Positions 7,411-52,865 of a DNA stretch of 64,000 bases are shown here, piece by piece. Every line of letters begins with the position of its first letter. Position 1 is the stretch's first letter. The stretch comes from Agelas oroides (lineage: Eukaryota; Porifera; Demospongiae; Agelasida; Agelasidae), in the NCBI GenBank assembly GCA_949130485.1, contig OX422189.1:9641992-9705991 (forward strand), read 5' to 3'. Under the pieces are notes generated by a model, which saw nothing but the letters and a program-made list of their open reading frames with translations, had not been told where the DNA came from and made no database searches. The translations under genes and the position numbers were made by a program.

Positions 7411-7852
7411 TAGTATCATTATTCACCATAGTTGTTGTTATGTGTTACGTCACTATTCCAGCTATACTGCCATTTTCTTGTTTCTCTCAAGGGAAGTCTC
7501 ATCCTAATAGCTAGTGAAAACACACTACATCATGATCTCAAACTTCCTGGACTATATGAAATTTAAAACAAGCAGCTTCGTACGTACAGGCTTACTTTTT
7601 CTTACATTTACATGTACATGTACCTTGTCCCAATCAGGTGTTGGAACTCAACAGCAGATTAATGAGTGCATTGTGTAGCACAGCCACAACCAATTTGTCT
7701 CTCAGCATTCTCAAGCAGAGTTACTAGCTGGCATGCAGATTTATTGCAAAATACAGCATATGAACACAAGTAGGGCATGTACACTGGGATGTTACAAGAA
7801 TATACTATGGTAAACAGAGCTCCTATAGTCCACAGTTTGTGCTTCTTGGTGC

Positions 7853-8437
7853 ATCTTTTCCACGGGTACCATACAACATCTATGTGTTTGACTGGAGTAA
7901 CTCCACACTTTTTCAAGTTCAGCAAAGAAGGGAGCTCATGAAAACAGTTGTGACGAAAGGACATACAACCGAGAGAGTTCAAGAGTGTCAGTTTAATCAC
8001 TATAATTATGTGTGTGATCGTGGGAACAACAGAGTTCAAATACTAAACACAGAGTTGGAGTACATGAGCCGTTTTGGTTGCCATGGTGATGGAGATGGTC
8101 AACTTAACAGGCCAAATGACATTGCTGAGGACAAGGTTGGGAATTTGTACATTACTGATAGGGGCAATAACTGTGTGCACGTTTTTGACTGCAAGGGACA
8201 GTTTTTATCGACTTTGAGTGAGAAGGGTACTACTTCCAAACAACTAAGGAGCACTTGCGGCATCTGTGTACCAGCTTGTTTATATGTGTGAATCTTCTGT
8301 GTTAGTGTTTATGACAAGTGGAGAGTTTGTGACCTCCTTTGGTCAGTTCAATGACCCTGCTTGTATTGTAGTTGATTGTGATGGTTTTGTATATGTGAGC
8401 GACTTTGTACTAGCTGGCAAAGTTGTCATAGTTTGAG
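7853..8437 (+). pseudogene. NHL-only relic (copy 3)
   Basis: Near-identical duplicate of the relic at 1650-2234 (offset 6203), with the same frame break after 8289 and the same final TGA. Sharing the lesions shows that the relic was already broken before the ~6.2 kb duplication that made genes 1 and 2. Confidence 0.8.
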
Positions 8438-8991: not shown

Positions 8992-9228
8992 TGTGATGTA
9001 CTGTTGAACTAGTGTAGCATATCTGTTCTGTAAGCTGTTATGGTTTTGTATCATGACTGCGCATGCGTGGTTTTTAGTACCTTTTAATGTGGTTTTGTTT
9101 GTTCAGTCATATAATGTTGGTGCACCATGTTTTATCTCAGTTGTGACCTATATGCCTTTATGGTGAGATTAATAAGTGTTGAGTGATTGCGCGCACAGCC
9201 GACCATAAAGGAACCCAAGAACCTCACA
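8992..9228 (+). repeat. 5' LTR of gypsy element
   Basis: Begins TGTGATGTACTG and ends ACCTCACA. It contains TGCGCATGCG, a perfect-looking NRF1-type motif that echoes the host TRIM promoter motif. It is nearly identical to the 3' LTR. Confidence 0.93.
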
Positions 9229-9250
9229 ATTGGCGACGAGGGTGAACGAT

Positions 9251-16969: not shown

Positions 16970-17081
16970 TTTGCACATGCGCACTAGATAAGGTGGGTGG
17001 AGCAGCAGTCGCACTTTTTGTTTGCGCCATTTTTACTTACCCTCTTTTTCTTTTTTGCCTTGGAAAGAAGCTGCATTTGCG
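16970..17081 (+). promoter_or_regulatory. Shared TRIM-NHL promoter block, gene 3
   Basis: CACATGCGCA (16974-16983), GGTGGGTGGAGC and GCGCCATTTTTAC in the same order as before gene 2, 99 bp before the ATG. Confidence 0.6.
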
Positions 17082-18506
17082 ATGGTGGAGGCTCCGGACG
17101 TGATGGAGAAGGGGTTGGAAAAGCTGGAGGAAGAGATCACCTGCCCCGTTTGTCAGGAACACTTTCGCGACCCCAAGATCCTCCCTTGTCTCCACTACTA
17201 CTGCAAAGAGTGCGTCCGACAACTGGCCCTACGAGCAGGGACCAACCGCCCCTTTGGGTGCCCCGAGTGCCGAAAAGAAACAGTTTTGCCTGAAAATGAC
17301 CCCGATCAACTGCCCACGGCGTTTTTTGTCAACCGAATGAAAGAGCTCCACGCAAACATGGAGAAAGCGCAAGGAAAGTCGGAAGCTGTTTGCGAAATGT
17401 GTTCTGGAGCGAAGGCCGAAGCATTTTGTCGTCAGTGTACCTACTTTATCTGCAGCGATTGCGTGAGATCGCACAGAAAGATGAAAGTATTCGCAGGTCA
17501 CAATGTTGTGACCCTTCAGGAGCTGAAGGAGGGCGGGGCTAAAGAGATTCCATTGAAAGAGGCCCCGCCCTCAATGTGCAAAGACCACGATGAGCAGTTG
17601 AAGATCTACTGTTTTGATTGTAATTACCTCATTTGTCGAGATTGTATCATTTATGACCATGCTGGACACAAGTCAGAATTTGTGAAGAAATCTGCCCCTC
17701 AGTACAAAAAAACACTCAAAGAAAGTTTGGCGCCACTTGCAACGATCCAAACCAACATTTCAGCTGCTACCAGGGAGGTTGAGAAGGTTGAAGGGGAAGT
17801 TTCTGAGCAACATAAGGTCATTGCAGGCACAATAGAGCAATCATTTAATCAACTTCATGAAATCCTACACAAACGAGAGAAGCAACTGCTGGACAGAACG
17901 TCTGAATTGAAGCAGCAAAAACTGGACAACCTGGGAGCACAGAAGAAGAGTTTTGCACTGGCCACCAACGAGATTCAAGGTCTTGTGGAGTTTGTAGAGC
18001 GCAGCATTGAAAACGCAACGGATGAAGAATTCATGTCGTTGCAGCAGCACATTCAAGAGCAAATCCAAGAGCAGTGTGCGAAGCATGAGCACATTGATCT
18101 CATACCAGCAGAGGCAGCAAACATTGGTGTTAGAGTGGCCTGTGCTGAAGGTATCTCTGGCCTCTGTCAAAAGAATGCCAATATTATAGTGTTGCCAGCA
18201 GACCCCACAAAGTGCACAGCGGAGGGTCCAGGGACAAAAGTTGCTGAAGTTGGCAAGTCAGCCCAGTTCACAGTCTGTACTGTGTACCAAAATGGCCAGC
18301 TCTGTAGAGAACAGCAAGAGATCGAGGCAGAGCTGAAATCAGTTGTAAATGATTCTGTTATTCACACCAAAGTCACTTCAAAAGGGAGAGGAGTTTATGA
18401 GGTCACTTACACCCCAGAGGTTCATGGGAGGCACTCCCTGATCGTTAAGGTGAATGGCACCCAAATTTCTGGCAGTCCATTTCACATGTTTGTGTTGTAT
18501 GTTTGA
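17082..18506 (+). CDS. TRIM-NHL gene 3, 5' part (RING-B-boxes-filamin), split by an insertion
   Basis: The ORF from ATG 17082 (MVEAPDVMEKG) encodes RING (CPVCQEHF, CPEC), B-box1, B-box2 (CKDHDEQLKIYC, DHAGH), coiled coil and filamin repeat, all with their zinc ligands. It is then cut at the filamin-NHL junction by the element at 18493-20758. The last few codons before the stop come from the element. As it stands, the product would be a ~474-residue TRIM without the NHL propeller, so it might act as a dominant or partner-less ligase. The NHL half continues in an open frame at 20763-21565. Apart from the insertion I see no lesion, so the event is recent. Whether the element is ever spliced out is unknown. 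Confidence 0.85.
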   Translation: MVEAPDVMEKGLEKLEEEITCPVCQEHFRDPKILPCLHYYCKECVRQLALRAGTNRPFGCPECRKETVLPENDPDQLPTAFFVNRMKELHANMEKAQGKSEAVCEMCSGAKAEAFCRQCTYFICSDCVRSHRKMKVFAGHNVVTLQELKEGGAKEIPLKEAPPSMCKDHDEQLKIYCFDCNYLICRDCIIYDHAGHKSEFVKKSAPQYKKTLKESLAPLATIQTNISAATREVEKVEGEVSEQHKVIAGTIEQSFNQLHEILHKREKQLLDRTSELKQQKLDNLGAQKKSFALATNEIQGLVEFVERSIENATDEEFMSLQQHIQEQIQEQCAKHEHIDLIPAEAANIGVRVACAEGISGLCQKNANIIVLPADPTKCTAEGPGTKVAEVGKSAQFTVCTVYQNGQLCREQQEIEAELKSVVNDSVIHTKVTSKGRGVYEVTYTPEVHGRHSLIVKVNGTQISGSPFHMFVLYV

Positions 18507-20758
18507 TTAGTATTTGTGCTGTACTTTGAACCGTGGACTATCTTACGTAATCGAGAGAACATTGTAGAAAAAGGAGGAACACGTGCATTTATTCATTCTG
18601 GCATTGTTTTGTGTGTTGAGTATTGTAAAAGTGGCAGTGTGTTGTATCAAGCCGGTGGTTGACTACAATATCCATTCTTGACTAAAGCATCTAATAGTGA
18701 TGTCAGAGTTTCCAAAAGTATGTAAATATTCTTCTACACAGGCCATTTCTCCACAATGTCTTAATGTATTCACATCAAATTTGATATAGAGGTTTTTTAG
18801 AGGCTTGGGTATATTTCCTTGCACAGCTTTGTTAAAAATATCTGCCTCGATCAAAACTACACACAATTTTTTGTCACATCTCGCTACTTTTCTGCAAATT
18901 GTTGAAGTATTAAGACATTTTGTGATGCTGCTCACAGTTACTTCAATATTCAACAAAGCACAACCAGTTCTGTATACTAGAGTAGTTGTCCAATGGGATG
19001 GTACAGGTTTTTGATTGGAACCTTGCTCCAACTTCCCCGGAAATGCAACTATTTATGGCCACAAAATGCCGTTTTTTAAGCATTTATCAAGCCTAGTGCA
19101 AGGATTATACTAGATATCTAAAAGCCACAACCTTCATTGGACTGAATAGGTACAGACTATCCTTCACAGCGAGTTTCGTTCTGATCGGGCTTACAGCGGC
19201 TTCCGGAAAGGTAGTGACCGGAATATTGCGCTAAAATGACGTAGAAAAAATTTGGCAAACCGGTTACATTTCGAAGACCGTACTGCTTGCTGTATTCACC
19301 CAATCTCATTGATATGGGTACCGTTGGAATCGCCATTTTATGCTCTTTTCGAAAATAAAGGTTGTTGTTGTGATAAACAAATTTTGATTTTCACCCCGAC
19401 ATCGCTACATCTAACATTACACTGGCGTAGTCGGCAGGATCTGCCCCGAGCTAACCGAACTCTGCGAGAAACTTGGAACTTAGCCGCGATACAACAACAC
19501 GATGGCTGACGACGATGACACTGCCGAGGGCGCTCGTACTAGTGCCGTAACAATGACAACCCGACCCTTGCTAATGCCAGAATCCTTCTCGGGAAAAGGA
19601 TCTTTTTCAGACTGGCTCCAACATTTTGAGGGAGTGGCCGCCATCAACAAATGGGACGATGCGGCCAAACTATTGTGGCTGAGAGTCAGACTCGTCGGAG
19701 CTGCACAGACGGCGTATGGACGACTTCCGACAACTGCCCGAGCATCGTACGCTGACTTGACTAAGGCCCTGAAGGACAGGTTTGAGCCAGAAGCCATGAA
19801 AGAAATGTATGTCGCAGAATTCCAAGCCTGCAAGAAAGGAAGGACAGTAGGGTGGGCGGAGTTTGCCGATCACTTGAAGCTGTTCGCAGACAAGGCTTTC
19901 CCAGACCTGGAGGACAAAGCTAGAGAGTATATGGCCTTAACACAGTTCATGGGACAAGTGGAAAACCCCCAGGTAGCTTTCAGTGTCCGACAGAAACGGC
20001 CCACTACGCTAATTGAGGCTGTCAGTGCAACCATAGAAATGGAGTCATACTTGAAGCCAAAGCCTAGTCACGTGGCACAAGTGGAACAATCGCATGCAGA
20101 TACTGCGATAGCAGCGGTACAGCTCAAACAAGACGCCATGATGGGAGTGCTGGAAAATATCATGGCGAGGCTGGAAAAACTGGAAGCCCAGGCAAGTGAA
20201 GGACGACCCACACCCGTTGGGAACTCAGAGCCCAGGGCAAAGAGACCTGTGGTGTGCGACAACTGCAAGCAGGAGGGTCACTATGCGAGAGGATGTGCAG
20301 CGCCGCCGGCAAGGACCTCCCGAGATCAAAGTAAGACCCCAATCTCACTCCTCCCAGTCAGCCACTCCTACCGCATCAATGGTCGAGTTAAGGGAGTCCA
20401 AGCAAGTTTTGTGGTTGACACAGGAGCAGCCGTCACCTTGTTAGACAAAACACTCTGGGACAAGGTGAACACGACAGGACAAGTATTGAGCACTTGGACA
20501 GGACCCCCACTGGTGGGAGTGGAGGGTACACGACTGGAGACGTGGGGAACTGCCACAGCTGAGATTGCCTTTGCTGGTGAGACCTTCCAGTTCCCTGTGC
20601 TCGTGGCCAGTTCATTGAAAGCAGATGCTATCCTGGGCATGGACTTCCTGGATGCGAATAAATGCACGTGTTCCTCCTTTTTCTAGAATGTTCTCTCGAT
20701 TACGTAAGATAGTCCACGGTTCAAAGTACAGCACAAATACTAATCAAACATCACAACA
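18493..20758 (+). mobile_element. TIR-bounded element (Ginger-like ends) carrying gag-protease
   Basis: 2266 bp. Inverted repeats of ~102 bp at 18493-18594 and 20656-20758 are nearly identical. The ends read TGTTG/CAACA and the target duplication is TTTG (18489-18492, 20759-20762). Ends of the form TGTNR with 4-bp duplications are described for Ginger DNA transposons, whose integrase is related to that of gypsy. Inside is a ~840-bp non-coding stretch, a tRNA-primer-site-like TGGCGTAGTCGGCAGGAT near 19433, and a gag-protease ORF. No reverse transcriptase or integrase is present, so it would be non-autonomous. The family assignment is inference from the ends. Confidence 0.75.
19502..20686 (+). 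CDS. Gag-protease ORF inside the TIR element
   Basis: 394 codons. The N-terminal part is a retrotransposon Gag-like helical region (MPESFSGKGSFSDWLQHFEG). A CCHC knuckle (CDNCKQEGHYARGC) lies near residue 250 and a retroviral-type aspartic protease (VVDTGAAVTLLD, later ILGMDFL) near 300-390. The ORF ends inside the right terminal repeat. The parts are those of a Ty3/gypsy element fragment. RT, RNase H and integrase are absent. Confidence 0.85.
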   Translation: MADDDDTAEGARTSAVTMTTRPLLMPESFSGKGSFSDWLQHFEGVAAINKWDDAAKLLWLRVRLVGAAQTAYGRLPTTARASYADLTKALKDRFEPEAMKEMYVAEFQACKKGRTVGWAEFADHLKLFADKAFPDLEDKAREYMALTQFMGQVENPQVAFSVRQKRPTTLIEAVSATIEMESYLKPKPSHVAQVEQSHADTAIAAVQLKQDAMMGVLENIMARLEKLEAQASEGRPTPVGNSEPRAKRPVVCDNCKQEGHYARGCAAPPARTSRDQSKTPISLLPVSHSYRINGRVKGVQASFVVDTGAAVTLLDKTLWDKVNTTGQVLSTWTGPPLVGVEGTRLETWGTATAEIAFAGETFQFPVLVASSLKADAILGMDFLDANKCTCSSFF

Positions 20759-20762
20759 TTTG

Positions 20763-21565
20763 TAAAGATCCATCCCACCCAGCTAGGCAAGCCAGTCAGG
20801 GTTGTGAAAGGAGTGAGGTGGCCATGGGCATTAGCACTCAACAGCAAGCAGCAGTTAGTTGTAGCTGAGTTTGGTGGGAGGAAGGTGACAGTGTTTGATA
20901 GAGGGGGCAAAAAGGTACAAACAATCACTTGTGGGTACTTTTCGCACCCTACTGGAGTAGCTGTTGACAAAGATGACAATATCTATGTGTCCGACTGGGG
21001 TAACTCCTCACTTTTCAAGTTCAGCAGGGAAGGGAAGCTCATTAAAACCGTTAGAAAACAAGGCACACGACCAGGAGAGTTCAGTAGTGTGAGTTTTATC
21101 AAGGTCCTCAATGACAAACTGTATGTGTGTGATAGTGGGAACCACAGAGTTCAAATACTGAGCACAGAATTGGACTACATAAATAGTTTTGGTTGCCATG
21201 GTGATGAAGATGGTCAGTTCAGAGGGCCAAGCAACATTGCCCAGGACGGAACAGGAAATTTATATGTGACTGATAGTGGCAATAGCCGTGTACAAGTCTT
21301 TGACTGCAAGGGACAGTTTTTGTCTACTTTCGGTATGAAGGGTGCGCAACCTTATGGAATCTGTGTTGGTTCTGATCAGCTGGTTTATGTATGTGACAAT
21401 AAGAACAAATGTGTGTCAGTGTTTCAGACAAGTGGAGAGTTTGTGACCTCCTTTGGTGAGCTCAGTGACCCTCAGGGTATTATAGTTGATGAGGATGGCT
21501 TTGTATATGTGAGTACTGCAATACATGTGAGTACTGCAATACCTGGCAAGATCATTATAATTTGA
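20763..21565 (+). pseudogene. TRIM-NHL gene 3, NHL part downstream of the insertion
   Basis: Continues exactly where 17082-18492 stops (TVKIHPTQLGKPVRVVKG in other copies) and encodes a full set of NHL repeats (GVAVDKDDNIYVSDWGNSS, NLYVTDSGNSRVQVFD) to TGA at 21563-21565. It has a small in-frame direct repeat near the end (HVSTAIHVSTAI). The frame is open, but it is separated from its start by 2.3 kb of transposon, so it is listed as the disconnected half of gene 3. Confidence 0.8.
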
Positions 21566-33841: not shown

Positions 33842-36800
33842 ATGGCTGAAGCCCCGGACACCGCGGGAAAGTCAGGATTGGAGGAGCTGGAGGGTGAGAT
33901 CACCTGCCCCGTTTGTCAGGAGTACTTCCGTGACCCCAAGATTCTTCCGACTTGCCTCCACTACTACTGCAAGGAGTGCGTCCGACAACTGGCCCTCCGA
34001 GCGGGGCCGAACCGCCCCATCACTTGCCCCGAGTGCCGTAGGGGAACAGTTTTGCCTCAAAATGACCCCGATCAACTGCCTACGGCGTTTATAGTCAACC
34101 GAATGAAAGAGCTCCACGCTAAAATGGAAAAAGCACAGGGAAAAGTGGAAGCTATTTGCGAAATGTGTTCGCGAGCAAAGGCCGAAGCGTTTTGTCGCCA
34201 ATGCACTGACTTTATCTGTGAGGAATGCGTGAGATCTCACAGTAAGTTGAAGGTATTCACAGGTCACACTGTCGTGACCCTTCAGGAGCTAAAGAAGGGC
34301 GGGGCTAAAGCGATTCCGTTGAAAGAAGCCCCACCCTCAATGTGCAAAGACCACGATGAGCAGTTGAAGATATTTTGTTTTGATTGTAATTGCCTAATTT
34401 GCCGAGATTGTACCATTCTTGATCATGCAGATCACAAATTTGAGTTAGTAAAGAAGAAAACAGTCAAAGACAGTTTGGTGCCACTTGCTGAGATCCAAAC
34501 CAAGATCTCAGCTGCTACTAAACAGATGCCGCTGAAAGAAGCCCCACCCTCAATGTGCAAAGTTCATGATGAGCAGCTGAAGATATTCTGCTTTGAATGC
34601 AAGTGCCTCATTTGTCGAGATTGTGTCATTAGCAACCATGTTGGCCACAAGTTTGAGTTTGTGACGAAGTCCGCCCCTCGGTACAAGAAAACGTTGAAAG
34701 AGAGTTTATCACTTGATGAGATCCAAACCAACACCTCAGCTGCTATCCAGGAGATTGAGAAGGTTGAAAGGGATGTTGTAACCCTGAAAGTGGGTAGGGC
34801 TGAAGAGGTCCCACTGAAAGAGTCCCCACCCTGCGAAGACCATGAAAAGCAATCAAAGTTTTTCTGCTTCGATTGTAATCACTTTATTTGTCGAGATTGT
34901 GAGCATGTCAAATTTGAATTTGTGACTAAACCATCTGTCCCTCAGTATAGGAAAACACTCAAAGAGAGTTTGGAACCACTTGCAAAGATCCAAACCAACA
35001 TCTCAGCTGCTACCAGGGAAGTTGAGGTGGTCGAGAGGGAAGTTTCCGAGCAGCATAAGGCTGTTGCAGGCACAATTCAGCAATTGTTTGCACAACTTCA
35101 CGAAATTATACACGAGCGAGAGAAGCAACTGCTGGACAGAGCGTCTGAATTGAAACAGCGGAAGTTAGACAACCTGGGAGCACAGAAGAAGGGTTTTGTA
35201 ATAGCTACTAGCGAGATTCAAAGTTTCATGGAGTTTGTAGAGCACAGCGTTGAAAATGAAGAATTCATGTCGTTGCGGCTGCACACTGAAGAGCAAATCC
35301 AAGAGCAGTGTGCAAAGCATGAGTGCATCAATCTCATACCAGCAGAGGTGGCAAACGTTGGTGTTAGAGTGGCCTGTGCTGAGGGTATTGCTGATCTCTG
35401 TCAAAAGAATGCTGAGATAATAGTCCTGCCAATGGATCCCACAAAGTGCACAGTGGAAGACCCTGGGGAAAAAGAACAATCACTTGAATCAGTACCCACT
35501 ATCTCCTCTCCACTCAGTACGTTAGCTGATGTTGAATGTTTAATTCAGATTTCATTAAAAATGTGATTGCTAGTAATTCTCCACTGACTCTGTTTTTTTA
35601 CAATAAGTGTTTGTTTGAAGTGGGCATTTAGGTGGTGTTTTCTTCTACAGGACACTTGCGTGGAGCTGAAGTTGTTGCTCAAACAACCTTCACACTTACA
35701 CCAGAACAACAAAGTTTTGAGTTTACAGGTTATGGCTTCAAGCTACATGTTCCAGAGGGCAGTCTACCAGCAGAAGTATCAGAAACACAGCTGAATGTGC
35801 AAGTCAGTCTGTCTGGCCAGTTCCAGCTGCCTTATGACTGTGAACTCGTAAGCGCAGTCTACTGGGTGTCTAGCCCTCACAGGTTTACAAAGCCACTTGT
35901 TATTGAGATACAGCACTGTGCTGCACTCTCTAGTGATGAGCAGTGTGAACAACTCACCTTTGTTCGTACCAGGTGTACACAGAAGGAACTTCCTTACACA
36001 TTCACAGAACTAGAAGGAGGAGTCTTCAGCTACCACAGTTCATATGGTAGCCTGTCACTGTCCCACTTTTCTGGAGTTGGAGTAGGACGCAGAAGAGGGC
36101 GCAGGTCACACAGGGCCCGGCCTGCTCCGTATCGAGTCCCATCCGTTTCAATGCAGACCATTCAAGTTCAGCCACAGCAGCAAGCATCAGAACAGGGCAC
36201 TAACATGATGCCATCTGAATTATCACCTCACTCAGACATGGCAGTTCAGGTCAAGGAAGATACAGAGGATAAAGAGGTAATTGACCAGTACTGTGGTCAA
36301 GTCTATACCAGGAAAGGGATGAATGACTGCAGAGTGTACTTTGTGATCACAAGAAATCTGGATGCCCATCGTACTGTAAGTGTATCCATTTTCATGGTCA
36401 TGTAGCATGTGACAACTTCCTGTGGATTGTTTTACTTCATAATGCCACATTTCAAGAAGTAATTAACAACAAGTGGCATCAGTCTGTGTCCTTGATGGTA
36501 CTCTAATAGTTGTATGGAGCTAAGTAGCCACATTGTAGGCAAATTGACAGCAAGTGAGAGTAGGTGAAAAGAGATGTGGACAAAGTGAGAACACTTCCTG
36601 TCTCCTCTTCTCAATGCAGGTTGTGAAGAAATTTTACTCTACAGAGTTGCATGCTAGAGAATATTTAGAGATGAGTCTCAGATTTGATGAAGATGAGATT
36701 TCCTTAGCTATTCCAAGAGGTGGCACAATGCTGCAGAGTGGCTGGAAGATCATTCCACTTCACAATCCTATAGTAAGTTGTTATTGCCGAATGCCCTAGC

Positions 36801-39800
36801 ATGAGCCACATAATCATGCGGGTGTGGTGGGTGGGATCTTAATCTGAGGTGTGCTTGTATGTCTGTCCGTAACGGGTTTACGATTGAAATATACGGGTTT
36901 GCACATAGTTTACGTACCTTTCTGGCATGTGCCGCTCATGGTGCCATCGCAATGGAGGACTTGGAGGATAGAAGACGACAGCAGACTAGAGAACGAGTCA
37001 TCTCGACCGCGCTTCGCCATTTCATCCGAGATTGACAACTTTCCGCATGCTCGGCATGAGGCACATGATGCGCTGCGTATATCTAGTATAGACAAATGAA
37101 AAGGAAAATAATAATAACATCACTACTATGCTTTCTTTTTCTTTTTCTTTTTCTTTTTTTGAGCATAACCGCACCACAAGTGGAAAGAAAAAGGTGACTG
37201 GAGTGCAGGTAGTAACTGCATCCCAAGTGCAAAGTATCGGGTGTAGGTGGCAGGCCATTTCGTCCTGCCATAACAGACCATTGAGTAGATCCACTAGAGG
37301 CACACACTTCCAGGTGCATGGTGAGCAAGCAGCAAGGGCATAAACTTTGACTAAGAGAAACCCACTAACTACACATAGTGTGGAAGCCTGGTTAGAGGAC
37401 AAAAGTGGAACAGGGAACAGGGGATTGGAGTTTGGTGCACAATCCAGCGTCTAACATTAAGTATAGTCATTGGGTTATATAGAGTGAAGTGAAGCTTACT
37501 TGGTATTGCATATGAAGCCATGTAGAAGAGGGGTGTTAATAGGTGGTAATTGAAGCCATGTAGAGGTGAGATGATACAAAGGCAGTCAACTTGCTGGGCA
37601 GAAGATGGCCATGCTACTGTTGTATGCATCTACATCTAAATTGTATAGAAAATAAGAACACCACACAAATGCTACCGAGAGACATCAGTCGGTGTTGTAA
37701 AGAAGCGCCGTTGCCATCAAAAGCGCTGTGGAGCCATGGGAGGTGCTGTAGTGCAGCAAGCCTGTAGCAAAGTGCGCACTTCACTTAAGTATCAAAGTGA
37801 CTTGTAGCTCAGTGTGGCTGTGCTGTATCGGTAGTCTGCTACCAGAAAGTTGTAGCTAACATACCTAGCTTGTTAACAGTGTACCTACCTTAGTTATTAT
37901 ACAAGGCTCCAGAGCTGCAAGTCAGGATGAAGTTTAGTGTGGTCACTGAAGTGTCAACATTTTTGATCATAACTCAGGTTAGCAAGGGTTTAAAAAAATC
38001 GTATATTCTCATTTATAGCAAATGTAAGTACCTCCATGCTAAGATAGGTAGTTTGGGCACTGTAAAATCCTGTGTCACCATAGGCCCCATTTCGTGATGG
38101 CAAATGTTTGGCCCTGTATAGACTCCATGGATTACCTCTCAGGCTTAGTGCTTTAACTGAAGGTTCTTCAATGATAACTGTATCCAGCTGTGGTGTCAAA
38201 CTTCAGGAAGTCCTCTCACGCTTGGAAAGACAGGCTAAAACATTGGGCATACACATGCACTTTTGCGGCTTTTCATTCATTCATTCATTCGTTACTGTAA
38301 TTATTTTTTTCTTTCCACTTGTGGTGTGATTTTACATTTTCATTCTACTTAGATTAGGAAAGCAAATGTTGACCACTTTGGATGTGGTCGGACAATTCCA
38401 AAGTGTGAGTTGCTTCTTCAGTGGCCACATAGAGACAAACCTCACGTCTGCCTTGTGTATGACATTGACCTAACTGGAGCAAAAGATTGTTCATACTTCA
38501 CACTCTACATCCCAGATGAAGGTGAGAGATTCAGTGACATTAAAGTATACTGTGTGAAGATTTCTTTTCTTGCGTTGTTATAGTGCATCTCAGTTAATTG
38601 TGCAATCATAGTCGATAGTTTATTGTTTTCACCTAGCAGTAGGAGTAATGCCAGAGGTGTGTCACCAATTTTGCCAAGTTTAACACTCAGAGCATAGCAA
38701 TCAGTCCCCAAATTCTACTAAGTAAACATTGTATCTCTGTTAAGTGTAATGTTCAGTTCATAGTCTGGACAGTTGCAATAGAGGAACTGTTTCCACAAGT
38801 TGCACAGGATGGCAGTAACATTGGAATGTTTTGAGAGTCTACATCTGCATTTGTGTATTGTTTGTAGTGACATGCATAGATTGCAGATTAACAGATTGGT
38901 AATGGATACTGGTTCACCAGCAATTTTGGTGGGAGCAGAAATGGTGCTGGGCTGCAATGAGGCTGGACACTAATTTTTTTTCCTCTGAGACATCACCTAT
39001 CGTATTCCTGCACCAATTCTGCTTGTCACATCTAGGTGCCTGTATACGAGCCCAGGTGGAGAGTTGTGGTAACCTCACATGGTTTCATGTTATTTGAAAG
39101 CTGTGGGGTGGAATGTGGGGGTGGAAAAACAAAAAGAAGCTGCACTCGACTTCGCAGAGGTCAGCTTGGTTACTTGGTTACGAGTTGGCGCCAAGGTCTA
39201 AGTACAGCTGGCAATAATTATCTGTGATTCATGCACACACAGATCAGCCCAACCCTACCCCCCCTCCCCCCTCCTATGTTAACTTACTTTAACCTTAAAC
39301 TTCAATTTAACATGTATGTTTATAGGCAGTACTCCTTTGAAGTGTTTGTGTGTAGCAAGTGTGCATAAGAACGGGTGGCTTGAGTAAGAGTGTGTAACTC
39401 CAATAGAAGCCCATAGCCAGTCAAAATTATTGAACCGTACTAAAAATAGAACACCCGGTCATGTGCTTAGCAACCATGGCTTATGTCTACACGCAGCTGC
39501 GCAGTGCATGTTACTATATTTAGTGCTGGCGGTAAATTCCGACTGGTTTCAAATTTTACGGAGTTACACACTCTTACTCAAGCCACCCATTCTTATGCAC
39601 TCTTGTGTGTAGTAACTGTCATACTTCAGTAGTGGCAGAATACACTGGAGAGGGGAGTCCTCCAGGAAAATTAGATGACCTTCACTTCTGAGACAATTTT
39701 GGAATTTGTGCCTTTGATTTCACCTGTAGCTTTTTGTGGTAGGATTCTGATTCACTTAACATCCACGTCAGGTTAGCTACATTTACTACATACGGAAGGC

Positions 39801-42800
39801 AAGAAGGGCCGTTTCCTTCTTCTTTACATTTCTTGCAAGCATTATTTAGGTAGCTGCTAGTTTATGACAAACAGTCAAGATCTCCAAGTTTATACATGCC
39901 AGCCCACCATTTCAGTTGCATTTCCACCTGTACCTGAAGCACAGAAGATATGATGTGCTTGTTCATTTAATTAATTAAAACCCCTTAAACCCTATAGTAC
40001 TGCGCACTGTGCAGAAAAGATAGTTTCTGCACAAGTCCACAGGTTCTGTGTCAACAGAAAGGGTGGGACAGGGGGAGATGGGTGGGGTCACCTGCAGGGT
40101 GCTGTGCACATGGCAGCTACTAGGCTTGGCTGTAAAAAGGCCACGGTTGGCACCATAAAAAGGCTTAGAGAACACTATTCTCACCTCGTAGGGGGCTCAT
40201 TTCTGGCAGGGAAGCCTGCTTGAGTTCTGAGCGGGCATTTGCTAACCGAGAATGCTGACTAATGTATGCTCGTTAATGAGTGGGTATGGTTAAGGTCACG
40301 AGTCTGCTTATTTTGCCTGAAAGTGCACTTGGGTTCAGTTTTGGAGTCAGAGCTCAGACAGAAACGAAGATATGGTGCATTAAAGGCATGTATATGCTAA
40401 AAGTAGTCTCAAGTGAAAAAATTCAGGGGGATTATTGTACCGATTACTTGGAATAGAGTTTAGTAGAGGTGGCATGCCAACAAATATACAAATGTGGTCA
40501 GGATGACAGCATAAAAGCGAAGGTCAACATATAGGCAAAACCCCATTTCGACATCCTTTTTTTACACTACACCCATACACAAGTACAAAATAACCATTCA
40601 GCTTATTAATTAATGCTCCATGTTGTGTACATGATATTATGCTGTTGCAAGTTGTGTTTTGGACATTCTGCCATACTGCCACTCTGATATCTTGTGAATG
40701 TTAATGTCCACTCTGCAGTCTGTTCAGTCTCCAGGTTTTGTGTAAAGAGATGATGTCCCACTTAGCTAGCCGCATTCCCAGGCCTCCCCCCGTTTTTGTT
40801 CTTCGGTTTGCGTTCACAATAATAGCGAAAGAGCGGAGAAAAACGGGGAAGGCCTGGGAACACCTATCACATGAATGACGTCTGGGGGACGCGAGGTAGA
40901 CGTAGGGGGGGTGGATATAGGGGGGGAGGGGTCCGCATTCAAATAATGTACTAGACTTCATCATCGAGCGCTCCGTCGCTAGGCAAGACCTCAGACATTC
41001 ACATGCAAGATCGCGAATATTCCGCTTGACCGGTAAGAAACTCACTCTCAGGTTTATTGCGCATAAATTTGTAGTTGGGCACCGTCCCGCATCCACCTGA
41101 TGTCATTCACATGGTAAGTGTTCCCAGGCCTTCCCTGTTTTTCGCCACTCTTCTGCTTCCATCTATTATTGTGAACGCAAACCAAAGAACAAAAGCGGGG
41201 GAGGCCTGGAAACGAGGCTACCACTTAGCTATAATACCGTACTGAAGGGCAATGCATGTGGGCAATAATCAGATTCTGTTATGATCTGTGTTGTATGCTA
41301 CCATCCCTACCTTCTTTGTATCATGGCGTACGGTAGTACGCCATATGTAGGGATGACCCCGAAAAAAAATGGCGGCCACATTAAAAGTGCACAAATGGCA
41401 TGCTCGAAATGTCTACGTTAGATTAGTCAGAGGCCTCCATGAGCCATATCAGGCATTATCGAGTGCTTCCATAAGCAACGGGACCATCAACTTTGCTGGA
41501 GACAATCGCTAAAGTACCAGACCGGCAAGTCGCTAAAACGGGCAAATCGTCTATCTTCTGACTTTCTGACTAGCTAGCTACCTTCCAACATGACAGCAAG
41601 ATAACTGCTACAGTTATTACAACAATTCAAACACGAAACAACAGCATAAATCACTGGGTATTGCACTCACTACTTATCGTTATCGTAGAACTCGAACTGT
41701 TCTTCAGTGATTTTCAAGCACTCCGATGTTAATGCTCAGTGCTATACGCCATTTTACTAGAATATCATTATTCATAGCAAGTACGCCCCCCCCGGATGTA
41801 CGACTGAGCACGTGTTTACCGTGAAAGATGAACTTCGGACAGCAACAGCCCATGTCAGGTGTATAGTATAACGCAAAACATAGAGAGGGGATGTGCATGT
41901 TTCCAGGAGAAGTGTTTAAAGGTGTATATTGCTAGAGCTGCTGTAAATGAAAGTGTAGGTGAGGACTCCCACACTGAGCACATGTAGTTTGCAAGTGCAG
42001 CAGTTTCTACTTCCATTAGACCGTAGCTGAAGTCATTTTGTAATCTAGTCAGTTGCTATATAGTCATATAACCCACCTATATACAAGGTATACTTGATGG
42101 TTAAAACACCAGCTGGTACTTGCCAGCTAGTGTTCTAAATTTGCCAGCTAGTGTTTTAACCATCAAGTACTTGTATCTAGGTGGGTTATATGACTTAGAA
42201 CACTATAGCCTCAGTTTTTATTTTCAACTTCACATTTCTTGTTATAGTCATTTACAACTGTACACATACAATGTTTACTTCGAGTTGATGGTAGCATTTT
42301 GGCTGGTGTCTTCTTAACATCCTCCTTTTGTGTTGGGCCTGAGTCTTCATATTCCTCCAACACAGCAAGTAGCAGCCTATTGATAGCTTGGTATTCGAAC
42401 TGCTCTAGTGCAGCTAGTAGCACCGAGAGTCAACAGTGCATGGCTTCATTCAAAAACTTCTGCACTAGAGGAGGCGGCCACAGAAACTGGCGGTTGTTCA
42501 GCTCCATCGATCCCTATGCTGTGGTTTCAAACTGATTTAGACTTTAGCTACTTACCATCAAACTGTTCCTATAATGGGGTCTTATGACTCAATACTCTGT
42601 GGTGACAGTCTATGGAGAGTTTATCGGTGAACCCATTAGCAGTCTACATGAAGTGAGCGCGGGAATTACAAGCTCGTGTGCAAAGCCTCATTAAACCCAT
42701 GTGCTTTGTGCTTGGGTTTTATGAGGCTTTGCTTGGGCTTCTAAACCCTGCAGATAAAGGAGTTTGATGTTTGGATTTACAATTTCACTTAGAAGCGTTT

Positions 42801-45203
42801 GAATTTATGACGACTCTTAGTTCTTTGTGTGAACAAATCAGTTCTATACTATCATACTGTACACAGCATGCTGGTCCTACCCTCCAACGTCTCTTCTTTC
42901 TTACCATTCCTAAAAAACAATACAAAAAAAAACAGCAGGAACAAGTCACAAAAAAGTTTTCTGAATGAAAACAAGCGCATGTAGGGATGGAACCCTCAAA
43001 AACCAACCAAACTAGATGGGAATGACACCACAATACCTTTTCACACCATCCCTACATCTTGTGCCATTTTGCCAACTATGCACACCACAAAACTCTCTAC
43101 ATGCACTTAGCCTATTCCCACCCACGAAATGAACACTGTGCTCAGCACTGCTCACTCCACAGCCTTCTACATAAAAGACAATCCATATCTGCCATGTTCA
43201 GCAGCAATAAAATTTCACATAACTTACTCCAACATACCATACAGACCCAGCTCATGCACTCCACAGTTTCTACATTCAAGACAGAACATATCTGCCATGC
43301 TCAGTATAGCAACTACATTGCAGCCATCAACAACGTAACTCACTCCCCGTGCACCAAGAGCGCATAAGAACGGGCGGCTAGAGTAAGAGCGTGTAACTCC
43401 AATAGAAGCCCGTAGTCCGGGAAAAATTATTGGACCGTACTAAAAATAGAACATCCGGTCACGTGTGCGCTTAGCAACAATGCATAAGGGCTTATGTCAA
43501 CGCAGCGTGCACGTGCGTGTTACTATTTTTAGTACTGGCGGTAAATTCCGCCCGGTTTCGAATTTTACGTAGTTACACGCTCTTACTCTAGCCGCCCGTT
43601 CTTATGCGCTCTTGCCGTGCACATAATGTGCACTGATGCGTCTAGTAAGGAGACCTCGTCATGTACAGGGACATCAGATAGACAGAAGCCAGACACACAC
43701 TGAGGGCAGAACCCAACCGTAATTGTGTTTAATCAGTGTTGTTTTAGTTCAATGTTCGGACTAGTAGTTTAGTTTTAGTTTTAATTACTAAATCTAAAAA
43801 GGGTTAGTATCGGTAGTTTTAGTTAACTATTATTTTCTGGTGATATCAAATTGGTTTAGTTGTAGTTTTTAATTAACAGACTAAGGCAGCATCAATTTTA
43901 GTTTTAGTTTTAATTACTAAAAGGTTTTATGCCTTACTAAAATGCATTTTAGTTTTAGCTTTAGTTAGCTAAAACAACACTAGCCTATACCACACTGCCT
44001 TCCACAACTTTCCTATGCACACAACTAACAAACACAAACCATAGTTGGCAAAATGGCACAAGATGTAGGGATGGTGTGAAAAAGTATTGTGGTGTCATTC
44101 CCATCTTTCCAGGACCTACCATTCTGTATACTGTCATTCTGCCATTCTGCCATACTGCCACTCTGCCATTCTGATATTTTGCTATTCTATATTATAAGCT
44201 TCAAAAAGCATTTCACTCATAGTGTGCACTGCATATCTTTCAAGGCATACACTACAAGTCGATCTATTAAACCTGCATTTTCCTCTCCACCTGAATCTGG
44301 AGACCTATTGTTCATCATTCCAGCCCTTCCTAACAAGTATATTATTGGGATCATTTCCGGTTTTAGTTGAGTACCTTATTGATGGTATACCCTAGGACTA
44401 TGAACAAGTGCAACTATACTAGCTACTCAGGTGCTTTTTCTCCTAAAACAATACTGCAGCAAGTGTGACTAGGCCACTAGGCCTAATGCCAAAGTAAAAT
44501 GTCGAACTAGATCCAATGACTAAACACCTTCTGGCCTTCAAAACTACAATGTAGCTGCATTTCTTCTGACTTTCAAATGACAGGTCGGCTGAACCACAGA
44601 ATGGCAGGATGGAATGACCCTTCTCAGCTTCCATAACTACATACATCACAGAGCTGTCAAACTGGGAGGGGCTTACTCCCCTCTGGAAAATGGGAGGGCC
44701 TTAGGCTCATTATGTTCCACTGCCTATGTACTTGGTTGTCCTTCCCTCAGATAATGACTCCTCATCAGAAATAGTCACACATCATTCAGAAGAAGCTAAA
44801 ACACTTGGTAAGCATAACACTTCTAATGTTAGTAGGCTTTATGGCTAGCGATCAGCTTTAACCAGACGTATAATGATGCTTTGTGTATGCATGTACAGGT
44901 ATAGAAACCCTTGCAGACATCACCAGCTACCTCCACTCGCTGGACAGAACATCAGTGTTCAACCTGGGCCTGGTTCTGGGCCTTGATTACAACCGACTCA
45001 AGTCCATGACAGACTTTCCAAGCTTCCTTCAAGACATGCTAGCTGGGTGGCTGCAGATGGTGGACCATGTTCTAAGCACTGGGGTCCCAACATGGAAGAG
45101 GCTAGTGGAGGCCTTGCAAGATCCAAGAGTTGGCCAGAATGGAGTTGCCAGCAAGATTGAACAGGATAAGCAATGGACAAAAGCATTTCAACTGCAGCAT
45201 TAG
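33842..45203 (+). CDS. TRIM-ZU5-Death fusion protein, six exons
   Basis: Exons 33842-35516, 35651-36375, 36620-36772, 38353-38521, 44751-44807 and 44899-45203. All introns are GT-AG, phases 1,0,0,1,1 agree, total 1027 codons. Exon 1: RING (CPVCQEYF, CPECRRG), B-box1 (CEMCSRAKAEAFCRQC), three B-box2-type modules (CKDHDEQLKIFC; CKVHDEQLKIFC; CEDHEKQSKFFC, the last lacking the usual His end), coiled coil, and the first ~25 residues of a filamin repeat. Exon 2: ZU5 domain (FTGYGFKLHVPEGSLPAE, SAVYWVSSP, FTELEGGVF), then an Arg- and Gln-rich linker. Exons 2-4: a conserved region in the place of UPA. Exon 6: Death domain (DITSYLHSLDRT, LGLVLGLDYNRLKSM, LAGWLQMVDHV). ZU5-Death is known from UNC5, PIDD and ankyrins; a TRIM front end is not familiar to me. 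The first splice (CTCA/gtacgt) is the least certain part. Confidence 0.85.
36773..38352. other. Intron 3 of the TRIM-ZU5-Death gene
   Basis: 1580 bp. It holds CACCACAAGTGGAAAGAAAAA near 37170, mirrored near 38320, which may mark the ends of a decayed fold-back element. A short open stretch near 36952-37035 (MEDLEDRRRQQTRERV) lies inside and is not assigned. Confidence 0.45.
39356..39605. mobile_element. hAT-like MITE in intron 4 (copy 1)
   Basis: 250 bp. Inverted ends of ~45 bp (CAAGTGTGCATAAGAACGGG and mirror) flanked by TGTGTAG on both sides. Copy 2 is at 43355-43614. Confidence 0.75.
40767..41220. mobile_element. Fold-back element, TAGCCTCG type, 9-bp duplication
   Basis: 454 bp flanked by CCACTTAGC at 40758-40766 and 41221-41229. 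Outer arms carry CCCAGGCCTCCCCC and TTGTTCTTCGGTTTGCG with mirrored copies. Inner arms carry GGCCTGGGAACACCT. Confidence 0.8.
42063..42194. mobile_element. Palindromic MITE in intron 4
   Basis: GTCATATAACCCACCTA and GATGGTTAAAACAC pair with their mirrors at the right end. Arms are ~45 bp. No coding. Confidence 0.75.
43355..43614. mobile_element. hAT-like MITE (copy 2), 8-bp duplication
   Basis: 260 bp with ~45-bp inverted ends (CAAGAGCGCATAAGAACGGG), flanked on both sides by CCGTGCAC. The 8-bp duplication fits hAT. Confidence 0.8.
43734..43981. mobile_element. AT-rich CAGTGTTGTTTTAG MITE (copy 2)
   Basis: The same end motif as 27982-28143, with an interior of repeated TTTTAGTTTTAGTTTTAATT. 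Confidence 0.6.
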
Positions 45204-45879: not shown

Positions 45880-45959
45880 GGCCTATGCACATGCGCAGAA
45901 TAGACTGAGCTGCCATTTTAGTTTATTTGGGCTTTTCCCCTGGAAAGAAGCTACTTTCA
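45880..45959 (+). promoter_or_regulatory. Shared TRIM promoter block, gene 7
   Basis: CACATGCGCA (45888-45897) and GCCATTTTAG at about 45912, 63 bp before the ATG. The most compact version. Confidence 0.55.
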
Positions 45960-48143
45960 ATGGCGGAAGCACCGGGTATGAGGGAGAAGGATTTGGAGGA
46001 GCTGGAGGAGGAGATCACTTGCCCCGTTTGTCAGGAGCACTTCCGCGACCCCAAGATCCTCCCTTGCCTCCACTACTACTGCAAAGAGTGCGTCCAACAA
46101 CTAGCCCTCCGAGCAGGGACTAACCGCCCCTTTGCTTGTCCGGAATGTCGAAGGGGAACGGTTTTGCCTCAAAATGACCCTGATCAACTGCCCACGGCGT
46201 TTTTCGTCAACCGAATGAAAGAGCTCCACGCGAAAATGGAGAAAGCGCAGGGAAAAGTGGAACCGGCCGTTTGTGAAATGTGTTTAGAAGCAAAGCCCGA
46301 AGCGTTTTGTTGTCAATGTACTGACTTTATCTGCAGTAGTTGCGTCAGAGCCCATAAATTGTTGAAGGTATTTGCAGGTCATAAGGTCGTGGCCCTTCAA
46401 GAGCTGAAGGAGGGCGGGGCTAAGAAAATCCCGCTGAAAGAAGCCCCGCCCTCAATGTGCAAAGAGCACGATGAGCAGTTGAAACTGTTCTGCTTTGAAT
46501 GCAAGTGCCTCATTTGTCGAGATTGTGTCATTAGCAACCATGTTGGCCACAAGATCGAATTTGTGAAGAAATCTGCCCCTCGGTACAAGAAAACACTGAA
46601 AGAGAGTTTGGTGCCACTTGTGAAGGTCCAAACCAACATCTCAGCTGCTACCAGGGAGGTTGAAAAGGTTGAGAGGGAGGTTTCTGAGCAGCATAAGGCT
46701 GTTTCGTGTACAATTGAGCGATCATTCAAACAACTTCATGAAATCCTACATAAGCGAGAGAAGCAACTGCTGAACAAGGCATCTGAATTGAAGCAACAAA
46801 AGCTGGACAACCTGGGAGCACAGAAGAAGGGTTTCACACTAGCTACCAGTGAGATTCAAGGTCTTATGAAGTTTGTAGAGCGCAGTGTTGAAAATGCAAC
46901 TGATGAAGAATTCATGTCGTTGCAGCAGCACATTCAAGAGCAAATCCAAGAGCAGTGTGCAAAGCATGAGCACATCAATCTCATACCAGCAGAGGTGGCG
47001 AATGTTGGTGTTAGAGTGGCCTGTGCTGAAGGTATCTCTGACCTCTGTCAAAAGAATGCTGAGGTAACAGTCTTGAGAGTGGATCCCACCAAGTGCACAG
47101 GGGCTGGGACGAAAGTCACTGAAGTTGGCAAGTCAGCCCAGTTCACAGTCCACACTGTGTACCAAAATGGCCAGCTCTGTGGAAAGAACCAAGTGGTCAA
47201 GGCAAACTTAAAATCCCTTGTGACTGATTCTGTTACTCACGCCAAAGTCACTTCAAGAGGGAGAGGAGTTTATGAGGTCATGTACACTCCAGAGGTTCGT
47301 GGAAGGCACACCCTGGTTGTGAAGGTGAATGGCACCCAAATTGCTGGCAGCCCATTTCAAGTCTTTGTGAAGATCCACCCTACTCAGCTAGGCAAGCCAA
47401 TCAGGGTTGTGAAAGGAATGAGGTGGCCATGGGGGGTAGCACTCAACCACAAGCAGCAGTTAATTGTTTCTGGGATGAGTGTGACAATGTTTGATAAAGA
47501 TGGCAAGAAGGTACAAACAACAAGAGAGAATGTTTCATACCCTAACGGAGTAGCTGTGGACAAGGATGACAATATCTATGTGTCCGATTGGGGTAACTCC
47601 TCACTCGAGAAACTCAGCAAGGAAGGGAAGCTCATGAAAGTAGTTGGACAAGAAGGGACAGGACCAGGAAAGTTCCGTGATGTCGGTTTTATCAAGGTCA
47701 TCAATGACAAATTGTATGTATGTGATCGTGGGAACAACAGAGTTCAAATACTGAACATAAATTTGGAGTATGTAAGTAGTTTTGGTTGCCCTGGTGATGG
47801 AGATGGTCAGTTTAACAGACCAACTGGCATCGCTCAGGACGCAGCAGGAAATTTGTATGTGACTGATACTAACAATCACCGTGTACAAGTCTTTGACTAC
47901 AATGGACAGTTTTTGTCCAGTTTTTGTCAACAAGTGAACTATCCTCGTGGCATTTGTGTTGGCTCTGATCAGCTTGTTTACGTCTGTGACAGGGACAACA
48001 GATGTGTGTCAGTGTTTAAGACAAGTGGAGAGTTTGTGACCTCCTTTGGTCAGTTCAGTAGCCCTGCAGGTATTGTAATTGATGAGGATGGTTTTGTGTA
48101 TGTGAATGACTGTATTGCTGAAGGCAAAGTTAACATCTTGTAA
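45960..48143 (+). CDS. TRIM-NHL protein, gene 7 (intact, probable founder neighbour of TMEM33)
   Basis: 727-codon single-exon ORF, ATG 45960 (MAEAPGMREKDLEELEEE). RING (CPVCQEHF, CPECRRG), B-box1 (CEMCLEAKPEAFCCQC), B-box2 (CKEHDEQLKLFCFEC, NHVGH), coiled coil, filamin repeat (a three-residue gap at KCTGAGTKV) and six NHL repeats ending with VNIL. All zinc ligands are present. It is the TRIM-NHL gene that lies next to the complete TMEM33, tail to tail, so it may be nearest to the ancestral arrangement from which the duplicated units came. Its RING and B-box1 share ECRRG and other residues with the TRIM-ZU5-Death gene rather than with genes 2-5. Confidence 0.93.
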   Translation: MAEAPGMREKDLEELEEEITCPVCQEHFRDPKILPCLHYYCKECVQQLALRAGTNRPFACPECRRGTVLPQNDPDQLPTAFFVNRMKELHAKMEKAQGKVEPAVCEMCLEAKPEAFCCQCTDFICSSCVRAHKLLKVFAGHKVVALQELKEGGAKKIPLKEAPPSMCKEHDEQLKLFCFECKCLICRDCVISNHVGHKIEFVKKSAPRYKKTLKESLVPLVKVQTNISAATREVEKVEREVSEQHKAVSCTIERSFKQLHEILHKREKQLLNKASELKQQKLDNLGAQKKGFTLATSEIQGLMKFVERSVENATDEEFMSLQQHIQEQIQEQCAKHEHINLIPAEVANVGVRVACAEGISDLCQKNAEVTVLRVDPTKCTGAGTKVTEVGKSAQFTVHTVYQNGQLCGKNQVVKANLKSLVTDSVTHAKVTSRGRGVYEVMYTPEVRGRHTLVVKVNGTQIAGSPFQVFVKIHPTQLGKPIRVVKGMRWPWGVALNHKQQLIVSGMSVTMFDKDGKKVQTTRENVSYPNGVAVDKDDNIYVSDWGNSSLEKLSKEGKLMKVVGQEGTGPGKFRDVGFIKVINDKLYVCDRGNNRVQILNINLEYVSSFGCPGDGDGQFNRPTGIAQDAAGNLYVTDTNNHRVQVFDYNGQFLSSFCQQVNYPRGICVGSDQLVYVCDRDNRCVSVFKTSGEFVTSFGQFSSPAGIVIDEDGFVYVNDCIAEGKVNIL

Positions 48144-51900: not shown

Positions 51901-52865
51901 CTTTTGGGGAATAAGCCCAAGGAATTCAACTTTGTTCACCAGACCGTTCCTCGCCGGGAGGCGCACGCTGGGCACGAGACTAAAATAACAGCTGCGTAAG
52001 TATTTCCGTGTATCAAAAGCAAGGCAATGAGGCGGTGAAGAACTGGAAATGAGTCTAGTTAGGGACAGGTCTAATGACTGGTCTTACGAGAGTGCGTTCC
52101 ATAAGACGATGAGTCTAGTTAGGGACAGGTTTAATGACCGGTCTTACGAGAGTGTGTTCCATAAGACCATGAGTCTAGTTAGGGACAGGTTTAATGACTG
52201 GTCTTACGAGAGTGCGTTCCATAAGACGATGAGTCTAGTTAGGGACAGGTTTAATGACCGGTCTTACGAGAGTGCGTTCCATAAGACCATGAGTCTAGTT
52301 AGGGACAGGTTTAATGACCGGTCTTACGAGAGTGTGTTCCATAAGACAATGAGTCTAGTTAGGGACAGGTTTAATGCCGACTGGTCTTACGAGAGTGTGT
52401 TCTATAAGACAATGAGTCTAGTTAGGGACAGGTTTAATGACTGGTCTTACGAGAGTGTGTTCCATAAGACAATGAGTCTAGTTAGGGACAGGTTTAATGA
52501 CTGGTCTTACGAGAGTGTGTTCCATGAGACGAGTCTAGTTAGGGACAGGTTTAATGACTGGTCTTACGAGAGTGTGTTCCATAAGACGATGAGTCTAGTT
52601 AGGGACAGGTTTAATGACCGGTCTTACGAGAGTGTGTTCCATAAGACGATGAGTCTAGTTAGGGACAGGTTTAATGACCGGTCTTACGAGAGTACGTTCC
52701 ATAAGACGATGAGTCTAGTTAGGGACAGGTTTAATGACCGGTCTTACGAGAGTACGTTCCATAAGACGATGAGCATGAGGAAGATCTCACTGTAGGCGAT
52801 GAATCTTTTTAGGTCCTGTTGCTTGGTTGCTATCCATTTGTTGGACGCTGTGATTATTCTGTGTG

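Follow-up and report, generated by a model that had tools for sequence, protein, structure and literature searches.

The 64-kb window analysed here (contig C7, positions 9641992-9705991, of the Agelas oroides genome; genome searched, 259 Mb) contains TRIM-filamin-NHL genes arrayed in tandem, each intact copy consisting of a single exon. Within this array (C7 9.64-9.69 Mb) lies a gene of six exons that joins a TRIM front end to a ZU5-UPA-Death tail, hereafter the fusion gene. In this study, we report its architecture, the origin of its joint and a possible mode of action of its product. Positions are those of the window; the fusion gene and its downstream neighbour lie on the plus strand.

Architecture of the fusion gene

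The gene was rebuilt by independent splicing, which reproduced the six exons, the consistent phases, the GT-AG sites at all five introns and the 1027 residues of the initial annotation, with exon entry phases of 0, 1, 0, 0, 1, and 1. Exon 1 (33842..35516) encodes a RING, a B-box1, three B-box2 copies (the third degenerate) and a coiled-coil region, and ends in a phase-1 donor. Intron 1 (35517..35650, 134 bp) contains the stop of the TRIM frame, which runs to 35566, and beside it an ATTAAA at 35554 that is a possible alternative polyadenylation site. Exon 2 (35651..36375) carries the ZU5 domain, a low-confidence linker and the start of the UPA, exons 3 (36620..36772) and 4 (38353..38521) a UPA-like region, exon 5 (44751..44807) a short linker, and exon 6 (44899..45203) the Death domain with the stop codon. 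When 14 loci of the genome were compared, exons 2, 3, 4, and 6 showed 73-87% DNA identity to other loci (87% for exon 4 against both L047 and L048), while exon 5 had a single match (80% over 59 bases) that adjoins the Death exon in L059. Given these paralogous exons elsewhere in the genome, the gene structure is judged to be beyond chance. An open frame between exons 3 and 4 (38084-38330) was considered as an additional exon and rejected. It has no match in the 14 loci, and the homologue P0113 aligns directly across the exon 3/4 joint, which supports skipping this frame, as the initial annotation had done.

Pfam, run on the spliced protein, gave 96.9 bits for B-box (four stretches), 33.0 for RING_UBOX and 30.5 for C3HC4. 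The RING finger (33905..34036, residues 22-65) has all eight zinc ligands by pattern and is also matched by Pfam. It is followed by the B-box1 and two B-box2 (34157..34648; residues 106-142, 168-198, and 239-269), both B-box2 fitting the zinc pattern, by a third B-box2 (34832..34921) that fails the pattern used, and by the coiled-coil region (34913..35452, residues 358-537), assigned by homology to TRIM-NHL proteins and not by a predictor. The RING with its zinc ligands, the B-boxes and, by homology, the coiled coil thus stand in the order of the TRIM (RBCC) family. The filamin domain and NHL propeller of TRIM-NHL (class VII) proteins were not found in the protein by Pfam, nor was any filamin or NHL remnant found between 35467 and 45956 by tblastn at an expect value (E) of 0.001. 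Identity of exon 1 to the TRIM-NHL copies of its own array, partial matches included, was 77-83% over residues 1-206 and 77-80% over residues 357-542; for the coiled-coil region, identity was 77-80% with array copies and reached 82% with copies on C10. By this identity the TRIM part is a duplicate of a TRIM-NHL gene, as initially proposed. The filamin stub once attributed to it is practically nil, since TRIM-NHL homology ends at 35453-35474, varying by copy, a few residues into the filamin domain.

Support for the tail comes from different sources. The ZU5 domain passes Pfam narrowly, with 21.0 bits at a cut-off of 21 in the spliced protein and 22.9 bits on the 468-amino-acid (aa) C-terminal part. 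Only the start of the UPA lies within the structural model, with which chains of ankyrin, UNC5b, NLRP1, and CARD8 aligned as far as residue 241; the UPA region is colinear with P0113. Pfam found no Death match in the spliced protein. The Death assignment is based on an AlphaFold2 model (predicted local distance difference test score, pLDDT, 82.8), on fold comparison, in which the model matched death domains with their six-helix death fold, and on the Death segment of P0113. The first row of that comparison was chain H of 2of5, tied with FADD, which chain we take to be the PIDD death domain. Foldseek alone gave nothing for this model at E ≤ 0.001 (best 0.088). Among solved structures, a search with the single sequence returned only weak zinc-finger matches and one with the Death profile returned none; profile A1 was swamped by the coiled coils of relatives and the fold search was used instead. 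NCBIfam had no match for the ZU5 or the Death exon.

The joint and its probably inherited splice donor

The three closest ZU5 paralogues, L047, L048, and L049, lie on C7 at 6.63, 6.72, and 8.84 Mb and are 77-81% identical in the ZU5 exon. Where the fusion gene has TRIM, they have a long charged heptad-like frame ahead of ZU5, open over 477, 456, and 871 aa, respectively, and termed coiled coil by eye; Pfam found no match in that of L047, the one scanned. The end of this exon with its inferred donor, CTCCTCTCCACTC[T/A]|GTACG, is common to the three paralogues and to the end of the TRIM exon, where it reads CTCCTCTCCACTCA|GTACG and, with the start of intron 1, occupies 35499..35542. A query of 192 bases (35454-35645) was aligned by Smith-Waterman to the coiled-coil exon and next intron of each paralogue, with 200 shuffles each. 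The best local alignments, at the donor spot, scored 38, 38, and 40 for L047, L048, and L049, against shuffled maxima of 30, 29, and 31 (0 of 200 in each case); with nine other ZU5 loci the same query scored 22-28, which 8 to 125 of 200 shuffles reached. In addition, the codon phase at the joint agrees with that of the paralogues.

The simplest reading is that the intron joining TRIM to ZU5 is the former intron between the coiled-coil-like exon and ZU5. The breakpoint falls in the interval 35467..35498, between the end of TRIM-NHL homology and the start of coiled-coil-exon homology at 35499. These alignments place the break within the coiled-coil-like exon in front of ZU5, and the final bases and donor of that exon survive. 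The initial annotation had described a capture of the ZU5-Death exons; one gene does join both, and the event is not a plain intron capture. A duplicated TRIM-NHL gene, cut at the start of its filamin domain, would have been fused in frame with the final bases of that exon ahead of ZU5-UPA-Death, with the donor kept. Because this donor is retained at the joint, the TRIM exon is very probably spliced to ZU5-UPA-Death by the inherited intron. An independent start of ZU5 in exon 2 was also considered and rejected: there is no ATG in frame ahead of HFS and the ZU5 end, and the frame must therefore be entered by splicing from upstream.

Several points temper this account. In the coiled-coil exon and its intron, identity between L047 and L048 is 92%, so that the donor evidence comes closer to two witnesses than to three, and the paralogue donors are themselves inferred, without annotation. 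Among the Death-exon matches listed, none is near L047 or L048, so that a Death tail in these closest relatives is hypothetical. Lastly, the ATTAAA by the TRIM stop could permit a TRIM-only transcript. An ancestral gene ending in Death is suggested by P0113 and by L051, where ZU5, UPA, and Death matches lie within about 2.2 kb, the Death exon of L051 carrying a stop.

With respect to direction, the initial annotation had the TRIM duplicate landing upstream of a ZU5-Death gene. It is more probable that a truncated ZU5 gene moved into the TRIM-NHL array, given that the fusion gene is located within this array and the remaining 29 ZU5 places on C7, among those listed, are at 2.8-8.9 Mb.

The window has further features. 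Downstream of the fusion gene lies a usual single-exon TRIM-filamin-NHL gene (45909..48143; open frame, Met about 45957). In one stretch (16992-21565) a frame at 19484-20686 that is gag/protease-like by eye stands between a TRIM-filamin frame (16992-18506) and an NHL frame (20744-21565); this is apparently a TRIM-NHL gene interrupted by a retroelement insertion. An open frame of 1323 aa between TRIM-NHL genes (9209-13180) resembles, by eye, the gag-pol of a long terminal repeat (LTR) retroelement, and one of 254 aa at 52031-52795 consists of 12 near-identical units, each of about 20 residues.

Apparent constraint on the exons and the ZU5 repertoire

Pairwise ratios of nonsynonymous to synonymous substitution rates (dN/dS) between the fusion gene and its paralogues were 0.25-0.26 for the ZU5 exon (n=3), 0.15-0.16 for RING-B-box (n=2) and 0.25 for the coiled coil (n=1). 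Against L047, L048, and L049, exon 3 gave 0.18, 0.18, and 0.25 and exon 4 gave 0.42, 0.42, and 0.13, the two values of 0.42 coming from only six synonymous changes. Exon 3 gave 0.34 against L051 and 0.31 against L053 (L052 has no exon 3 match), and for exon 4 the synonymous divergence (dS) was saturated against L051-L053. The Death exon gave 0.17-0.44 in eight loci that are not all distinct: L041-L043 have identical values, L045 and L059 represent one exon, and a stop interrupts that of L046. Changes unique to the fusion gene amounted in ZU5 to 23 synonymous and 11 nonsynonymous (ratio 0.14; without L048, 23 and 17, 0.21), the controls being 0.28 for L049 and, for L047, just 0 synonymous and 1 nonsynonymous changes. 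For RING-B-box they were 18 and 5 (0.07; controls 0.12, 0.03, 0.10, and 0.06) and for the coiled coil, in a set without T5191 (anchor not found), 13 and 16 (0.33; controls 0.17, 0.08, and 0.36). These comparisons cover the ZU5 exon, RING-B-box, coiled coil and exons 3, 4, and 6, with exon 5 and residues 207-357 outside, and the exons tested look constrained. The coiled-coil part evolves somewhat faster in the fusion, which counts against the account given here. It must be noted that the branch ratios do not date the fusion, because the branches include pre-fusion time.

The genome has at least 142 matches to the ZU5 exon, some of them pieces of one exon, and at least 96 to the Death exon; the loci examined show front ends of several kinds. 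On these counts the ZU5-Death tail is part of a large shuffled repertoire and not a rare UNC5-like gene. When 136 of the 142 ZU5 places were compared with 128 TRIM or B-box places (omitting six places that represent the second piece of a split ZU5 exon, together with repeated TRIM-exon pieces), the fusion gene was, among the matches listed, the only one of the 136 to have a TRIM or B-box place no more than 30 kb upstream of it on the same strand. The lists of ZU5 and TRIM or B-box places behind this comparison give minimum numbers, 150 of 182, 80 of 304, and 150 of 321 candidates having been scored. TRIM queries had no match at E 1e-4 in 14 fetched ten-kb ZU5 loci.

Homologues were sought among proteins of 257-819 aa and 565-1797 aa, searches that models split over exons would escape; the named species among them are Amphimedon queenslandica and Halichondria panicea. 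By the Pfam columns of 122 distinct homologue matches, a RING or B-box occurs in P0107 only, a 446-aa open frame on a 59,934-base contig of the European Nucleotide Archive (ENA). It combines a RING, a pair of B-boxes and ZU5 within a single frame, all of them above their Pfam cut-offs. The initial annotation knew of no such architecture in standard model animals; P0107 shows at least its RING-B-box-ZU5 part, in an open frame of a different public contig. Identity between P0107 and the fusion gene is 32% in the TRIM part and from 38% (with some linker) to 47% in ZU5, and in the window's genome the two parts were matched at up to 79 and 90%, respectively, at separate places on C1. It would thus be a second TRIM-ZU5 fusion, drawn from other subfamilies, and it looks convergent. 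Because its halves match separate places, TRIM and ZU5 would have come together on at least two occasions, with different partners each time. An assembly error in P0107 would undo this reading, and is made less likely by the in-frame joint between domains. No relative was found in the viral contigs scanned with P0107.

Other front ends occur on ZU5 relatives: P0005 has a NACHT front with Death at its N terminus and P0004 a Roc-like GTPase (Roc scoring 16.2 bits, below cut-off), while the front is Kelch in P0006, P0007, P0009, and P0103, ankyrin in P0120 and MATH in P0121 and P0122. These are relatives by sequence search; their Pfam ZU5 is below cut-off in P0004-P0006, P0103, and P0120-P0122 and unlisted in P0007 and P0009. 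Candidate fronts in the genome include two same-strand open frames upstream of ZU5: that of L052 matches a protein kinase at 125 bits, and that of L057 matches COR/Roc, with 28.1 bits for COR-A and 22.6 for Roc, neither of which reaches its cut-off. The L052 frame (6250-8196) has a full protein kinase domain, then a charged stretch, and ends about 290 bases ahead of the ZU5 exon; L052 is a possible kinase-ZU5 gene.

Putative self-cutting, rival explanations and known systems

A motif that bears on the possible mode of action, HFS at 36064..36072 (residues 697-699), is overlooked in the initial annotation. HFS is the autocleavage motif of PIDD and Nup98; here it precedes the last ZU5 strand and the predicted site of autoproteolysis is F|S. 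The ZU5 fold and an HFS or SFS motif, which mark the autoproteolytic ZU5 of the PIDD/NLRP1/CARD8 type, were both found. Among 120 relatives, 83 have HFS and 103 have xFS, and several solved NLRP1 and GAIN chains end, in the fold alignments, at the HFS Phe. Self-cleavage of the ZU5 domain at HF|S, as in PIDD, NLRP1, and CARD8, is probable; it would yield an N part (RING-B-box-coiled coil-ZU5) non-covalently bound to a C part (UPA-Death). Against this must be set that xFS is absent in 17 of the 120 homologues (10 of these with Cys for Ser), that the aligned range of the ZO-1 ZU5 chain 2kxr, to our knowledge not a cutter, also ends at 139, and that the GAIN chains 4dlo, 8oek, 9mqr, 8ikj, and 8vy2 extend beyond, to 146-151. 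Furthermore, no equivalent of the essential NLRP1 His (H942 in rat) was identified in ZU5, and Pfam FIIND was not listed for the spliced protein at E up to 5, where HMMER filters discard most weak matches. In alignment A1 a His is invariant at model residue 88 and frequent at 138, both being candidate positions by sequence. In the ten xFC relatives (P0042, P0045, P0049, P0060, P0073, P0006-P0009, and P0120) the Cys could also act as nucleophile.

In NLRP1 the self-cut leaves two bound fragments; when an E3 drives the N fragment into the proteasome, its destruction halts at the break and the C fragment is set free, and direct ubiquitination of NLRP1B by an E3 suffices for this (PMC7483925). If the fusion gene is transcribed and its product cleaved, ubiquitination of the N part, whether by its own RING or by TRIM-NHL partners associating with it via their similar coiled coil, could lead it to the proteasome, and its loss would free UPA-Death to form a death-fold signalling complex. 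The N part could be self-ubiquitinated because it is itself a predicted E3 ligase. The signal sensed may come from TRIM-NHL partners in such mixed assemblies, since the fusion protein has no NHL propeller. By analogy, then, functional degradation with a built-in trigger, in which own or partner E3 activity on the N part releases UPA-Death, is conceivable, and we regard it as rather doubtful; CARD8 degradation can be ubiquitin-independent, which counts against it (PMC9213247). Taken as a whole, the prospect of a real chimeric gene in which a TRIM-NHL duplicate is joined to a ZU5-UPA-Death tail with putative self-cutting and self-triggered release is evenly balanced. A still more specific version is unlikely as a full description: a self-arming device in which RING clustering, alone or with TRIM-NHL sensors sharing the coiled coil, ubiquitinates its own N part and frees a Death effector, as one of a sponge repertoire with the same kind of module behind TRIM, kinase, Roc GTPase, NACHT, Kelch, ankyrin, MATH, and coiled-coil fronts.

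The protein might also work uncut, as a fused scaffold whose closed ZU5-UPA-Death adaptor, UNC5- or ankyrin-like, brings the RING to Death partners that are then ubiquitinated and damped. UNC5b has Leu in place of the cutters' Phe (PMC3210808), whereas the fusion and 83 of the 120 relatives have HFS, and it is at this Phe that the aligned ranges of several chains of self-cutting families end; we consider the scaffold unlikely as well. The locus might instead comprise two transcription units, one for a truncated TRIM that ends at 35566 (RING-B-box-coiled coil) and another for ZU5-Death, which would suit the TRIM stop only 50 bases past the donor and the ATTAAA at 35554. This division becomes improbable in view of the donor end common to the pre-ZU5 exon of the paralogues with its matching phase, the lack of an own ATG of the ZU5 frame before HFS, and the single open TRIM-ZU5 frame of P0107. 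A young dead-end chimera or pseudogene, open by chance, is very improbable: 1027 codons are free of stops and dN/dS is low in the exons tested at a dS of about 0.2-0.8 from close paralogues (part of this divergence being pre-fusion), even if the gene is the sole case among the 136 listed ZU5 places and its third B-box2 fails the zinc pattern.

If the self-triggered release is true, the fusion protein would be a one-piece version of functional degradation, with its own E3 beside a self-cutting ZU5, and would make the principle easy to test. In sponges, as the wider family suggests, ZU5-UPA-Death modules bearing an HFS-type motif were already swapped among many fronts, and this swapping bears on the origin of inflammasome- and PIDDosome-like signalling. 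The surviving splice donor would be a clean example of the birth of a chimera.

The fusion protein shares RING, B-boxes and coiled coil with the class VII TRIM-NHL proteins, its direct paralogues in the same tandem array, and differs from them in having lost filamin and NHL and gained ZU5-UPA-Death. Pyrin (TRIM20) likewise unites B-box and coiled coil with a death-fold domain in one protein, with the PYD at the N end and without RING or ZU5-UPA. PIDD has two ZU5 domains. As in PIDD1, ZU5-UPA-Death comes with the HFS autocleavage motif (PMC3210808) and a Death model whose top row is 2of5 chain H; unlike PIDD1, the front is RING-B-box-coiled coil, with no leucine-rich repeats listed by Pfam. No RING-ZU5 or TRIM-ZU5 protein is described in the titles and abstract openings listed by searches of the ZU5 and B-box literature, most subscription papers being outside this range. 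NACHT-ZU5 proteins in early animals (PMC12909245) and fusions of TRADD-N, one with TRIM and another with UPA-ZU5 (PMC8195603), resemble the fusion in mixing immune domains with ZU5, and the parts of these papers available to us do not describe RING-B-box and ZU5 in one protein. UNC5 and ankyrin have the same ZU5-UPA-Death order and fold behind a receptor or cytoskeletal front instead of an E3, and UNC5b is without the motif Phe (PMC3210808). With respect to the FIIND (ZU5-UPA-CARD) of NLRP1 and CARD8, the fusion has HFS where CARD8 has SFS (PMC3210808), Death for CARD, and a TRIM E3 front for the NACHT-LRR or disordered N part, Pfam FIIND being unlisted. In the vertebrate case of NLRP1, functional degradation uses an E3 acting from outside the sensor, and in the fusion protein a putative E3 would be part of the same chain.
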